Made by a program: the position numbers and the translations under genes | Shown here: positions 254-43,916 of the stretch, piece by piece | Numbering within the stretch: the first letter of the stretch is position 1 | Layout: each line of letters begins with the position of its first letter | The notes under the pieces: generated by a model | What the model was told of the DNA's origin: nothing | Seen by the model: only the letters and a program-made list of their open reading frames with translations | Databases searched by the model: none | IMG/VR virus record: IMGVR_UViG_3300030329_001894 | Coordinates: 1 to 44,185 of that record | DNA from: a virus | DNA: 44,185 bases | Reading direction: 5' to 3' (one strand)

Positions 254-269
254 GCTAATCGATCACAAT

Positions 270-315
270 CGGTTGTCAAGAATCTCTTGACAATCGACTG
301 AGGTTGATATACAAT
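270..315 (+). promoter_or_regulatory. sigma-70-type promoter with overlapping dyad operator
   Basis: The -35 is TTGACA (287-292), the spacer is 17 bp and the -10 is TACAAT (310-315). The -35 is the right arm of an inverted repeat, TTGTCAAG (273-280), AATCT, CTTGACAA (286-293), extendable to 11-bp arms with one mismatch (270-280 / 286-296). The same arrangement recurs at 528-573 and 43814-43858. A repressor bound to the dyad would cover the -35; that is inference. Confidence 0.85.
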
Positions 316-348
316 CAGTCTCAACAATTAAATAGGGAAGGATTAGTA

Positions 349-516
349 ATGCAACACTTACTAGAAGATCCGCATGAGGATCATAAGGAAGTCAACATCC
401 TCACCAGTGATGAGATAGAGACTGAGTTTATCAGGATCTATCCATCAGCAGAGGTCAAAGAATTGTTGACGTGGTTAGTGCATGGTGATGAGGTAGAGGC
501 GATAGACCACACCTAA
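349..516 (+). CDS. hypothetical acidic early protein (55 aa)
   Basis: ATG at 349 follows GGGAAGGA by 7 bases. The in-frame ATG at 304 is rejected because it would sit upstream of the -10 element. The product (MQHLLEDPHEDHKEVN...) is short, acidic and soluble, with no recognised domain. It sits alone between two copies of the same promoter/operator unit, so it is the kind of gene expressed first after infection; host-takeover functions are typical of such a position but nothing in the protein shows one. Confidence 0.75.
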   Translation: MQHLLEDPHEDHKEVNILTSDEIETEFIRIYPSAEVKELLTWLVHGDEVEAIDHT

Positions 517-527
517 TCAGTCACAAT

Positions 528-573
528 CTATTGTCAAGGTAGACTTGACAATAGACTGGGGTTGATGTAGAAT
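528..573 (+). promoter_or_regulatory. sigma-70-type promoter with perfect 11-bp dyad operator
   Basis: A perfect inverted repeat CTATTGTCAAG (528-538) / CTTGACAATAG (544-554) has a 5-nt spacer and contains the -35 TTGACA (545-550). The -10 TAGAAT is at 568-573 after a 17-bp spacer. The following leader (ATTAAATAGAGGAAGGG) is shared with the promoter at 270-315. Confidence 0.87.
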
Positions 574-601
574 CAATCTAATTAAATAGAGGAAGGGCTA
601 T

Positions 602-4919: not shown

Positions 4920-5010
4920 ACCTAACTCTTCTTTGGGCGATTGGATATGTATCGGTATTACGTGGGTGCTTCCAGCGATTTTGCTCATGCTCGCTGCGGT
5001 TGTGGTATGA
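4909..5010 (+). CDS. 33-residue single-span membrane protein just before the sigma gene
   Basis: TTG start at 4909, 10 bases after GGAGG (4894-4898). The product has a short acidic/polar head (DREPNSSLGD) and one strongly hydrophobic span (ICIGITWVLPAILLMLAAVV). Its TGA overlaps the sigma start in an ATGA junction (5007-5010), so the two are probably co-translated. A membrane partner encoded directly before an ECF-like sigma resembles the position of anti-sigma genes, but at 33 residues it lacks any anti-sigma domain; that link is speculation. The TTG start makes the call less certain. Confidence 0.55.
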   Translation: MDREPNSSLGDWICIGITWVLPAILLMLAAVVV

Positions 5011-5528
5011 CGAAGGATGAAGTCGAAAAGACATTTCGTAGTCTTCGCAGTCGCTTACGGGGCTTTCTATTCGTACAGTACGGTAATCTCTCTCGTGAGG
5101 AGCATGATGACATAATTCAAGATACGTTTGAATTGTTACTCAAGCATCCTGATAAGTGGACAGACACAGAGCGAGACGTGTTTCCGTTAATGTGTGAGAT
5201 AGTGAAGCGACGAGCCAGAGGGCGGATACGGCATTTACGAATGCGAGAAGGAAAGTCAGAGAAAATCTTTAAAACGCAGGCTAACCACATCTTACCAGAC
5301 CCAGCCACGTGCATTCCCTTTGAACTTGAATCCGAACTAACGGATCGCCAAATCGAGATTCTGGTAATGAAAATGCAGGGCTACGAATACAAAGACATCA
5401 TGGCTAAGCTTGGCATCGCACATTCTACGGTCAACACGACACTGGATGTCGTCAGGAAGAAGCTCCGTTCGAAAGTTTTGTCGCATACGCATCTAAATCT
5501 CCCCACTCCCCGATATCAAACTCAATAA
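5007..5528 (+). CDS. RNA polymerase sigma factor, sigma-70/ECF-like (173 aa)
   Basis: Residues 34-47 (DDIIQDTFELLLKH) match region 2, which binds core polymerase and melts the -10. Residues 111-154 (LTDRQIEILVMKMQGYEYKDIMAKLGIAHSTVNTTLDVVRKKLR region) are a region 4 helix-turn-helix that reads the -35. There is no region 1 or 3, and the length is normal for an ECF sigma. The start at 5007 is chosen over 4941 because it forms an ATGA overlap with the membrane-protein gene and gives the usual ECF N-terminus. As the last early gene it is a good candidate to switch host polymerase to phage middle/late promoters. Its 3' end overlaps the convergent primase-helicase gene by 77 bp. A LuxR-type regulator is less likely because region 2 is visible. 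Confidence 0.82.
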   Translation: MTKDEVEKTFRSLRSRLRGFLFVQYGNLSREEHDDIIQDTFELLLKHPDKWTDTERDVFPLMCEIVKRRARGRIRHLRMREGKSEKIFKTQANHILPDPATCIPFELESELTDRQIEILVMKMQGYEYKDIMAKLGIAHSTVNTTLDVVRKKLRSKVLSHTHLNLPTPRYQTQ

Positions 5529-7125
5529 CGAGGCGATCAGGGACTGAGGCTCGACGAAACTCCCGCTGCACGACGATTTCAGCCTTCTTATCGGTTGGTC
5601 GCTCGACATATAGGCCGCACACAACCCAGTTGTGGAAGTTATTGCTTCCACTGAGGCGTTGACCGGCTCTGGAGGTGTCTGACTTCCCTTGCTTCTTACG
5701 CCAGTGGTGACAGACGATAAGTGCTGAGTTGCTTTCTTTACTGAGCTTGCGAAGCCAGTTGAGGATAGGCCGGACTTCGTGGGCCTTGGTTTCGTCCACG
5801 CCGCCTAGCATGGAGTACAGGGGGTCGAAGATAATGAGGACCGGACGAATGTTCTCGACCTCAGCACGTACCCGTTCGAGATGCTCTGGATCAGTCAGGT
5901 TAAACCCGCTCTGGTTCAGGAATCGAATGGGGAGGTTACGTGTTGGGGCGAGCTGACGGTCCTGACCCTCAGTCCATATCGCTGGGGACGGAAATAGACC
6001 ACGCTCACGCAACATTTTGTACATGAGGTCAGGAAGATAGTAGTCTGCATCATTCTCTTCCTGCACAATAAGGACGGGACCGTTACGGTTGACTTCGAAT
6101 TTTCCGAGGAACGGCTCACCGCTGGCGACAGCGATAGCCATCTCGAGGGTAAGCATAGACTTGTGGCTCTTGGCTTCGCCGCCAATGATACCCCACGCAT
6201 CAGCGTGCCAGATATCTTTGATGAGCCACCCAGCATCGACAGGCTGGCTGGCGAGAAGCTCCGAGAGCCAGACGAATTCAGACTCTGCTGGAGGTTCGCT
6301 TGACTCGACAGCCTCATAGTGGACAGGAGCGCTGCGTCGAACGCATTCTGTAAGACGTAGATCTTCGTCATATCGTCCACGGAACTTGTTCCATGACGAG
6401 TCTTTGAGAACCGTGAAGGTTTCTTCGGGGGTCAATCCTTCTTCTTGGAGGGTTGCTGACAATCGGAACAGGTACTCAGATCTATCGTTTGATGCCCCGC
6501 CTGCATAGGGGCGATTGATGAGTTCTTGTGACTTAGGTCCGGATTTCGCAATAAGCTCGTATACTGAGGTGGGGACAGGACGTAAGTTTTCCCCCACCGA
6601 TTCGTTAGCGATGGCTGGGTATGCTGCGTGAAAATCTGCGGAAGTATATTGGGTAGATTCACTCCACAGTATCTCGACAGGAGGAGCGCTTGGGTATTTG
6701 AAGTTTCGGGTGCCGGGAATACGGAGGACTTGGGTAATGTCCCACCCTCCCTTGTCAGCACCTTCAGCATAGGCCATGCGCTTGCCGCACTCGGCGGCAT
6801 CTTCGGCAGTAATGGCAGACGTAAGTTCCCACAACGCTTGGAAGCGTCCGGGCGATGATTGCCATGCGATGGTTGGACGGATCTTAAGTTTCTCTGGGTT
6901 AACAAAGTCAAGATCAGCCCAGACCCATTTTACGCGATGAGCGTTGTCTACACGTCGGGGTCCGGCAAAATGCACAGGCGCGAAGTACACATCGCGTTTT
7001 TTGTTAACCAGTTCTGTGATGTCTGCGGGGCTAAGATGCTCTGGGTGTTCGAGCCACGTGCCCGTTTGCTTGGGACTGTTCGAGGAAAAGTGAGTTGGTT
7101 GAAGTCTACGAAGAAAATCTTGCAA
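5452..7125 (-). CDS. RepA-like primase-helicase (557 aa)
   Basis: The N-terminal part has primase-type signatures: WADLDF (69-74) and WDITQVLRIPGTRNFK (128-143), the latter resembling the conserved R-x-PGT-x-N-x-K of prim-pol/RepB-like primases. The C-terminal part is a RecA-fold AAA_25/RepA-type ATPase. Its Walker A is GEAKSHKS (316-323), with His where Gly is usual before Lys, the Walker B is PVLIIFD (D434), and it has CHHW (472-475) and RAGQRLSGSNNF. It probably unwinds and primes phage DNA for the family A polymerase. It is the only minus-strand gene in the left arm, divergent from the helicase (39-bp gap) and overlapping the sigma gene tail to tail. Confidence 0.82.
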   Translation of the reverse strand: MQDFLRRLQPTHFSSNSPKQTGTWLEHPEHLSPADITELVNKKRDVYFAPVHFAGPRRVDNAHRVKWVWADLDFVNPEKLKIRPTIAWQSSPGRFQALWELTSAITAEDAAECGKRMAYAEGADKGGWDITQVLRIPGTRNFKYPSAPPVEILWSESTQYTSADFHAAYPAIANESVGENLRPVPTSVYELIAKSGPKSQELINRPYAGGASNDRSEYLFRLSATLQEEGLTPEETFTVLKDSSWNKFRGRYDEDLRLTECVRRSAPVHYEAVESSEPPAESEFVWLSELLASQPVDAGWLIKDIWHADAWGIIGGEAKSHKSMLTLEMAIAVASGEPFLGKFEVNRNGPVLIVQEENDADYYLPDLMYKMLRERGLFPSPAIWTEGQDRQLAPTRNLPIRFLNQSGFNLTDPEHLERVRAEVENIRPVLIIFDPLYSMLGGVDETKAHEVRPILNWLRKLSKESNSALIVCHHWRKKQGKSDTSRAGQRLSGSNNFHNWVVCGLYVERPTDKKAEIVVQREFRRASVPDRLVIEFDIGEWGDLDAYATKLSNGASS

Positions 7126-42413: not shown

Positions 42414-42445
42414 GCTCTGTTGGAGGCTCCTCAATTCGCTGTGCG

Positions 42446-42454
42446 AGTATACCA
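42446..42454 (-). promoter_or_regulatory. extended -10 promoter TGGTATACT before the LysM transglycosylase
   Basis: Minus-strand TATGGTATACT; the start point would fall near 42439, leaving GAGGAG in the leader ahead of ATG 42413. The upstream ATG at 42455 lies within this element and so is not the start of the mRNA made here. Confidence 0.62.
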
Positions 42455-42482
42455 TAATTTCGGCCTGTGTGCCGCTGGACCT

Positions 42483-42504
42483 CTCCCCCCCTTTAGGGGG
42501 GGAG
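42483..42504. terminator. GC-rich hairpin (CTCCCCCCC-TTTA-GGGGGGGAG)
   Basis: Perfect 9-bp stem (42483-42491 / 42496-42504) with a TTTA loop, between the terS candidate and the lysis promoter. No T-run follows on either strand, so an attenuator, RNA processing site or DNA structural site are all possible. Confidence 0.5.
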
Positions 42505-42661
42505 GTTCCGGCCACTGGTGGCTAGGCAAGTAACGATAGATCGCGTCATACAAGATGTGGAGAGGCAGAAAATGTCATATTTTTCATATTTTTTGGCCTA
42601 CAACCATGTTCCATCTCTTGTATAACGCTATTTTCGGAGGGTGGGGGGTGTAGAAAGGACA

Positions 42662-42741
42662 TTAGCCAACGGTTAGCAAAGTTTATCAAAGATTAATGAA
42701 ACGTTAATGTTCTGTTAATCTGGTGTTCGGTTTATGTTCGT
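42662..42741. repeat. helically phased repeat array (about 10-11 bp pitch)
   Basis: The TTA motif starts at 42662, 42673, 42683, 42693, 42704 and 42715 (TTAGCC, TTAGCA, TTATCA, TTAATG, TTAATG, TTAATC), and TTCG continues the phase at 42726 and 42737. All spacings are 10 or 11 bp, one helical turn, so the motifs face one side of the DNA. The array directly follows the terS stop and is AT-rich. Candidates: terminase recognition site, origin iterons or phased regulator sites. Confidence 0.6.
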
Positions 42742-43101
42742 ATCAGGAATTCAATTGGTCAGTTAATTCGACGGCTTCGTCTGTAGATGCAGGGCCGTCA
42801 ACCCATGCTGGAGACAGAACTTTGAGATATTCCGGGGGCGGAGAGGGATGTTCCTCTGCTTTATCCGACGGAGCGGTCCAGTTGAGGTCGTATTCGTGTG
42901 TAGATGGGGGTGGGCCTGTTGTCGTATCAATATAATCAGTTAGCAATGTCGTAGTTCTCGAGTTCGCGTTCGCTTCGCTCTCGCTCTCTCTTCGCCCTGC
43001 CAGCCTAATAACCTCTTTAATTGCCGACATATCGCCGTTTTTTGCCTTATCCAGCAGTATTTCGTAAATATCATCAATCGTTGATGTTCGGTTATTGTTC
43101 G
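42724..43101. repeat. 25-bp direct repeat pair (TGTTCG-N5-TGTTCG)
   Basis: TGTTCGGTTTATGTTCGTAT (42724-42743) and TGTTCGGTTATTGTTCGTAT (43085-43104) are near-identical. Each has two TGTTCG boxes 11 bp apart. One copy is at the end of the terS candidate and merges with the phased array; the other lies inside the gene, where it encodes an Asn/Thr run. Sites for a terminase or repressor are plausible. Confidence 0.6.
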
Positions 43102-43339
43102 TATTAAGCCTAGACTTTATCAATTCATCAACTACCGCCTGTATGGTAGGCGACTTAAGATAACGATGTACGGTGCGTACCGAACAATTTGCGAACACTG
43201 CGATATCTTGAATAGATCGATTCTCAGATAATCCCAACGCGATTTTCGCATGAGACAATTTTGGTGATTTTGGCAAAATATCGCCATCATGCAACGTTCG
43301 CGCTACCTGACACAATCGCAAAATTTTCTCGATTTTCAC
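42743..43339 (-). CDS. helix-turn-helix DNA-binding protein, terminase small subunit candidate (198 aa)
   Basis: Residues about 48-85 (LGLSENRSIQDIAVFANCSVRTVHRYLKSPTIQAVV) are a clear helix-turn-helix; then IYEILLDKAKNGDMSAIKEVIRLAGRR matches the helix (K-x-GD-x-x-AIK) common in phage small terminases of the phBC6A51 type. The C-terminus is Pro/Glu-rich and disordered. It is the first gene of the late transcript, although TerL lies 5 kb further on. A transcriptional repressor acting on the adjacent CTTGACAA array is the main alternative. Confidence 0.62.
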   Translation of the reverse strand: MKIEKILRLCQVARTLHDGDILPKSPKLSHAKIALGLSENRSIQDIAVFANCSVRTVHRYLKSPTIQAVVDELIKSRLNTNNNRTSTIDDIYEILLDKAKNGDMSAIKEVIRLAGRRESESEANANSRTTTLLTDYIDTTTGPPPSTHEYDLNWTAPSDKAEEHPSPPPEYLKVLSPAWVDGPASTDEAVELTDQLNS

Positions 43340-43527
43340 TTGACAAACTCAAAATTTTGTGCTAGCTCATTTTACCACAAAATCTGCAAAATTCTCTTGA
43401 CAAACTCGCCATTTTATGCTAGCCAATTTTCCCCAAAATCCTTGACAAACTCGCTTTGTCGTGATAGTCAAAATTCTCAAAATTCTCCCAAAATTCTCTT
43501 GACAAACTCAGTTCACTCACCTAATAT
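43340..43527 (+). repeat. array of four CTTGACAAACTC elements with promoter spacing
   Basis: TTGACA begins at 43340, 43397, 43442 and 43499, each followed by AACTC and, exactly 17 bp later, by TA (TAGCTC, TAGCCA, TAGTCA, TAATAT). Each is preceded by an AT-rich flank ending in CAAAAT-like sequence. No gene lies between them. They may be weak tandem promoters, repressor-binding or transcription-stopping sites, or both. Confidence 0.85.
43369..43377 (-). promoter_or_regulatory. extended -10 promoter TGGTAAAAT before the terS candidate
   Basis: Minus-strand TGTGGTAAAATG, identical over 12 bases to the site before the scaffold gene (24616-24624), 30 bases upstream of ATG 43339. It lies inside the TTGACA array of the opposite strand, so early and late transcription start back to back here. 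Confidence 0.65.
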
Positions 43528-43589
43528 CTATGTAGTTGATTAAGCGAGTTATCGAAACGAAAATTTTCGAAAATTCCCTCAAAATTGAC

Positions 43590-43618
43590 TTGACAACCGA
43601 CGATTAGCTTGCTAATCT
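43590..43618 (+). promoter_or_regulatory. sigma-70-type promoter for the 50-residue gene
   Basis: TTGACA (43590-43595), 17 bp, TAATCT (43613-43618). Fifth member of the TTGACA series; the CTTGACAACCGAC start links it to the dyad-operator group (CTTGACAAnnGAC). Confidence 0.75.
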
Positions 43619-43649: not shown

Positions 43650-43802
43650 ATGAATCGAATGTGGGTAACAAAGACATTCTTGAAAATGCTATTTTCGGGA
43701 ATTTCAACGGGCGAGAAAGCAACAATTGAATACTTGCTAACTGAATGGGAAAATGACAAAATACGAGACAGAATCGAGGATTTGCGGCAAGAATTGAACT
43801 AA
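43650..43802 (+). CDS. hypothetical early protein (50 aa)
   Basis: ATG at 43650 follows AAAGCGGGA, a weak ribosome site, 31 bases after a -10. Product MNRMWVTKTFLKMLFSGISTG then a charged helix (YLLTEWENDKIRDRIEDLRQEL). The N-terminus is amphipathic and could touch membrane. First early gene on the rightward transcript; function unknown. Confidence 0.68.
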   Translation: MNRMWVTKTFLKMLFSGISTGEKATIEYLLTEWENDKIRDRIEDLRQELN

Positions 43803-43813
43803 TCTATCTCAAT

Positions 43814-43858
43814 CAGTTGTCAAAATTACTTGACAACTGACTGAGGTTGAGCTAGAAT
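43814..43858 (+). promoter_or_regulatory. sigma-70-type promoter with dyad operator
   Basis: CAGTTGTCAA (43814-43823) and TTGACAACTG (43830-43839) form a perfect 10-bp inverted repeat with a 6-nt spacer, carrying the -35 TTGACA (43830-43835). The -10 TAGAAT is at 43853-43858 after 17 bp. Same unit as at 270-315 and 528-573. Confidence 0.87.
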
Positions 43859-43916
43859 CAATCTCAAAGTTGAAAATTAACAAACATCGCGCAAGCGATT
43901 ATAGAAAGAGGGCAAC

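Follow-up and report, generated by a model that had tools for sequence, protein, structure and literature searches.

Layout of the locus and its repeats

The DNA analysed here is a virus contig from IMG/VR, 44,185 bases long and hereafter called the window; its ends overlap by 99 bp with a single mismatch, at the last base, and it is probably a circular assembly. Replication-type genes, for a SNF2-like helicase, a family A DNA polymerase, a PD-(D/E)XK nuclease and a Sak4-like protein, are read rightward; the terminase, head and tail genes and a primase-like gene (5452-7125) are read leftward, and a phage-encoded sigma factor lies at 4941-5528 (phrog_1740, E 5e-9). The early operon extends rightward from 43650, past the contig joint, as far as about 13.9 kb. 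The region described here is located between its first small gene and a leftward gene for an HTH protein (Table 1). A tRNA-like sequence, GGGCATAATGG...GGTTCGATTCCCACAATGCCC, can be observed at 1055-1120, for which ARAGORN makes no call. The HTH protein had no match in phage records, and scans with TerL and the HTH protein across bacterial and archaeal genomes found no relatives, so no host or prophage was assigned. As had been noted originally, no integrase was seen among the proteins scanned; with no relative in bacterial genomes either, the immunity role that had been suggested for the locus is unsupported.

Table 1. Features of the divergent region and of the adjoining early genes (window positions).
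Feature	Coordinates	Strand	Description
HTH gene	42743..43339	-	198-aa protein, candidate ligand; predicted HTH fold nearest phBC6A51 small terminase
HTH gene promoter	43369..43377	-	predicted extended -10, TGGTAAAAT; TGGTAGAAT in L005, TGGTATAAT in L021
Copy 1	43339..43368	+	CTTGACAAACTC...TGC-TAGCTC; adjoins GTG start of HTH gene; lacks -7 T
Copy 2	43396..43425	+	CTTGACAAACTC...TGC-TAGCCA; at about -35 of the minus-strand HTH promoter; lacks -7 T
Copy 3	43441..43470	+	CTTGACAAACTCGCTTTGTCGTGATAGT; lacks -7 T; copy nearest to the element kept in L005
Copy 4	43498..43527	+	-35 of predicted sigma-70 early promoter, TTGACA-17-TAATAT (10/12)
Early promoter 2	43589..43618	+	TTGACA-17-TAATCT; perfect dyad GATTAGC-TT-GCTAATC across -10
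First small early gene	43650..43802	+	50 aa; 82% identity to L005 counterpart
Promoter cassette	43803..43878	+	-35 at 43830, TAGAAT; in inverted repeat directly after stop codon
Promoter cassette	254..330	+	-35 at 287, TACAAT; in inverted repeat after stop codon
Promoter cassette	512..590	+	-35 at 545, TAGAAT; in inverted repeat after stop codon

An identical 12-letter promoter half, CTTGACAAACTC, occurs four times in the window (43339, 43396, 43441 and 43498) and nowhere else in it. The string TTGACAAACTC is found exactly at 43340, 43397, 43442 and 43499 on the plus strand, with no other mismatch-free site in the window, and the exact copies are thus confined to one 170-bp array. All 12 columns of the 12-bp core are invariant when the four copies are compared, whereas in the flanks this is true of 6 of 63 columns. 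The copies are spaced 57, 45 and 57 bp apart, keep no single helical phase, and are contained in visible tandem duplications. CTTGACAA is seen again at 43589, 43829, 286 and 544, and the distance from TTGACA to TA is 17 bp in all eight named elements.

The pattern CTTGACAA-N15/16-TA gave 12 matches (two of them a single site counted twice in the 99-bp end overlap), compared with 0.14 expected in shuffles. When the AT-rich stretch 43310-43600 was simulated with a local Markov model, a single TTGACAAACTC copy was obtained in 0.05% of the runs and two copies in none; local composition therefore does not account for the array. The four elements with 17-bp spacing described in the original prediction are real and their range, 43340-43527, is right, the last -10 base of copy 4 being 43527; the genome-wide motif search it had proposed places every exact site in the array. 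The prediction had also let the array continue into elements at 43590, 43830, 287 and 545. These do keep the 17-bp spacing to TA, but they are CTTGACAANNGAC without AACTC and belong to a different class.

No RNA structure beyond that of shuffled sequences was detected in the array itself (z 0.43 and -0.24), and Rfam gave no match. Dyad operators were considered and rejected, since GACAAA-N5-TTTGTC is confined to copy 3 and the corresponding L005 element and is not in every copy. Comparable noncoding stacks of TTGACAAACTC were not found elsewhere in a scan of the IMG/VR collection, which brought up two contigs whose repeats are coding and a third with a short local duplication.

The array could also be read as the iterons of a replication origin, bound by an initiator, since its direct repeats lie in an AT-rich stretch (65% AT versus 50% overall) at the minimum of the cumulative GC skew. 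We consider this very unlikely: the skew changes where transcription switches direction and is hence uninformative, -35 boxes overlap with the repeats, no gene for an initiator was recognised adjacent to them, and they are missing from the more distant relatives.

Two classes of promoter-like elements

The eight elements fall into two classes, copies 1-3 on the one side and copy 4 with the four later sites on the other. Copy 4 and the sites at 43830, 287 and 545 have the TTGACA-17-TAnnnT form and score 10-11 of 12 as sigma-70 promoters, and a small early gene is found downstream of copy 4 and of each later site. Copies 1-3 have a perfect -35, the 17-bp spacing and both TG and TA, but the T at -7 is missing, and they thus lack the TAnnnT -10 element of an ordinary sigma-70 promoter. 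The poor -10 boxes reported for these copies (TAGCTC, TAGCCA, TAGTCA) are as originally described, and it is copy 4 that has a good one. Copies 1-3 had also been said to lead to no gene, which overlooked that copy 1 adjoins the start codon of the minus-strand HTH gene.

As a control for the -7 T we used TTGACAAACTC-N9-TGNTAG in IMG/VR, a scan pattern that is promoter-like by choice and favours promoters. The matches of this form were mostly ordinary promoters of unrelated phages, and the -7 T was present in 47 of 53 distinct unrelated phage instances, compared with none of the five elements without a paired -10 (three in the window, two in L005). L005 is the one available relative with such elements. 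Its HTH protein is 82% identical to that of the window. The L005 spacer is otherwise unalignable, yet TTGACAAATTC is retained at the HTH start and TTGACAAACTC within the spacer, both without the -7 T. Window and L005 differ by 4 bp in how far the element lies from the HTH promoter. The invariant core, the loss of the -7 T and the retention in L005 indicate that something besides ordinary promoter use conserves the -35-like half, and selection on this half apart from promoter activity appears to be the simplest account. Two earlier proposals, that copies 1-3 are not ordinary promoters and that a protein may read the -35-like half, are thereby strengthened, the second through conservation that is separate from promoter function.

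These observations also bear on whether the array could be a duplicated stretch of tandem sigma-70 promoters, with copies 1-3 weak or dead, copy 4 working and no dedicated protein. Such an origin would agree with the TTGACA, 17-bp spacing and TA of all copies, with the extended -10 TG of copies 1-3, with the tandem duplications that enclose the copies, and with the dozens of other phages in which this string serves as an ordinary extended -10 promoter. Neutral relics, however, should lose the -35 as well, whereas here the core is perfect and the -10 is lost; moreover, AACTC is kept beyond the needs of sigma, and the same broken form is retained in L005. We therefore regard the tandem promoters as a serious but rather improbable alternative. 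The TGnTA kept at the promoter position in copies 1-3 may nevertheless reflect some RNA polymerase contact.

Alternatively, copies 1-3 could be promoters for the phage's own sigma factor, with TGnTAG, common to the three, accepted instead of TAnnnT. This seems highly improbable, in spite of the sigma gene encoded in the window: a sigma-factor-like protein is present at the same place in L020 and L021 (L021 ORF 7860-8378), neither of which has such elements, nothing lies rightward of copies 1-3 beyond what copy 4 serves, and a different conserved block, 42445-42472, looks more like a late promoter. The surrounding minus-strand stretch, 42418-42518, is kept in three lineages, occurs once in the window and consists of a CCTCCCCCCCTAAAGGGGGGGAG hairpin followed by GCACACAGGCC...TATGGTATACTC; it is a possible late promoter.

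The more distant relatives L021 and L016 have a diverged HTH gene at the same place (33% overall identity in L021, 30% in tblastn) and no such repeats. In the downstream helicase region, L020 and L021 show about 75% identity. A stretch of the HTH protein, SENRSIQDIAVFANCSVRTVHRY, is identical in the window and L005, which have the element, and different in L021 and L016, which do not. Other structured elements were observed in these genomes. A very long conserved hairpin precedes the early genes in L021 (2560-2672) and L019 (146-272), with -67 and -92 kcal/mol and z -7.6 and -10.5; between the two, 5 of 45 pairs are changed on both sides and 2 are broken, and no counterpart was found in the window. 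L021 is also predicted to form, at 1444-1500 between the HTH and early genes, a compact two-hairpin RNA with an outer closing stem (z -4.7).

The second class is defined by CTTGACAANNGACT, which three window sites (43830, 287 and 545) share with one site in L005. All four lie in inverted repeats, of 21-24 nt in the window, that start at or just past the stop codon of the upstream gene; in the window cassettes the -35 of the next promoter is within the 3' arm and a second dyad covers the -10. An inverted TTGTCAA arm, to which the original prediction did not refer, is present in three of the later sites. Folded as RNA, these stretches are much more stable than shuffled versions (z -4.6 to -5.9). 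At two stem positions both partners vary and pairing is kept in all four sequences, although the covariation score, from only four sequences, was matched by 41 of 500 shuffles. Each cassette is likely a hairpin that ends one small gene and whose 3' arm doubles as the -35 of the next promoter. It is not a standard terminator, because no U-run follows.

The HTH protein and a putative operator array

Sequence searches with the HTH protein returned only weak HTH, transposase and small-terminase matches, including one to a small-terminase PHROG (E 0.005). The structure model is confident for about residues 1-80 only, with a predicted helical HTH at the N-terminus, and residues 118-198 are of low confidence. 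In the VIA-align comparison the first match of the model was phBC6A51 (2ao9; Z 6.9, 64 residues, 2.6 A, 22% identity), which is below the reliable range, and the following rows had Z 5.4 and lower; Foldseek gave E 0.17. phBC6A51 has been counted among small terminases (PMC11331095). We treat the likeness suggested by the model as a lead and not as family membership.

If the protein were a small terminase, the adjoining repeats could be its sites in a cosB/pac-like packaging site. The fold and PHROG matches would agree with this, and no other small terminase was recognised among the proteins scanned. On the other hand, the HTH gene is about 5 kb from terL and is served by a sigma-70-type promoter of its own, an early promoter has one of the repeats as its -35, and L021 and L016 have the HTH relative without the repeats. 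A conserved G-rich hairpin and promoter-like block also separates the HTH gene from the late block, an arrangement that would suit a regulator better than a late packaging gene, although it is not decisive. We consider the packaging site unlikely. At the 3' end of the HTH gene, a noncoding stretch (42680-42770) is more alike in L005 than the coding part.

The explanation that we prefer, and to which we give about an even chance, is that the array is a set of operators for a regulator in a divergent control region of the phage, the likeliest candidate ligand being the HTH protein. The array would then be a regulatory hub between the rightward early operon and the leftward HTH gene, and CTTGACAAACTC the site of a DNA-binding protein, used four times as direct repeats. 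The minus-strand extended -10 promoter of the HTH gene is common to three lineages (the window, L005 and L021); in the window, copy 2 lies upstream of this promoter, at about -35, and copy 1 at the start codon. Binding to copy 4 would mask the early promoter's -35, whereas binding to copy 2 would mask the -35 region of the HTH promoter and binding to copy 1 the start of the HTH gene. In this way one protein could act on both units and lower early transcription as well as its own production, and the HTH protein encoded next to the array is the most economical candidate. The sequence itself shows the repeats, their conservation, the lack of the -7 T and their placement relative to the predicted promoters; protein binding, the protein that binds and repression as the outcome are points that we infer. 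Counting against operators are an HTH fold more like a small terminase than a known repressor, the uneven helical phase of the copies and the 4-bp shift relative to L005.

A bolder version, for which we see a slim chance, would be that a small-terminase-like protein, produced early from a sigma-70 promoter of its own, binds the four -35-shaped direct repeats and doubles as repressor of the early genes, tying packaging recognition to the early-to-late switch. A literature search on terminase autoregulation found nothing on point. The array offers a concrete, testable control element for an uncultivated phage group with no close relative in the phage records searched. A terminase-like HTH protein as ligand would link packaging recognition with early gene shut-off, and an ordinary operator array would be a useful annotation and no surprise.

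Comparison with known regulatory and packaging sites

The original prediction had likened the elements to the stoperators of mycobacteriophage L5. In phages of Cluster A, 20-30 asymmetric repressor sites are scattered across the genome, most of them away from promoters (PMC6550527), and the L5-type repressor has two domains, an N-terminal HTH and a Stoperator domain, and binds as a monomer (PMC9283540). L5-type sites are 13-14 bp long and without dyad, with one in the early promoter, and the 12-bp asymmetric core and copy 4 as a -35 resemble them; the L5/Bxb1-type repressor, which blocks transcription elongation at its sites, is also similar in size to the window's HTH protein. The string TGTCAAG is common to L5/Bxb1-type sites and the window elements. 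In contrast to the genome-wide L5 sites, the window has four exact TTGACAAACTC sites in one control region, the fold nearest to the HTH model is a small terminase, no L5-repressor homology was found and there is no sign of lysogeny. L5-repressor and CI-type structures were absent from the fold matches listed for the HTH model, which carries no weight. The proposed stoperator link is therefore not upheld, and the likeness to L5 is one of form, of asymmetric sites that include a -35.

In sites of the cosB/pac type, repeats near terS are bound by the small terminase, and the window likewise has direct repeats beside a gene with a small-terminase-like predicted HTH fold. Here, however, the repeats coincide with an early promoter -35 and the HTH gene is outside the terL operon. 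The phBC6A51-type small terminase is a ring oligomer with DNA packaging activity, to which the window's protein is likened by predicted fold. In the lambda OR type, several operators lie between the repressor and the early promoters. As there, the window has multiple sites between divergent promoters, overlapping both; the lambda sites are dyads, whereas those of the window are direct asymmetric repeats, and the HTH protein is no CI/Cro relative by any search made. The proposed operator-array design is a familiar one, in a previously uncharacterised phage.
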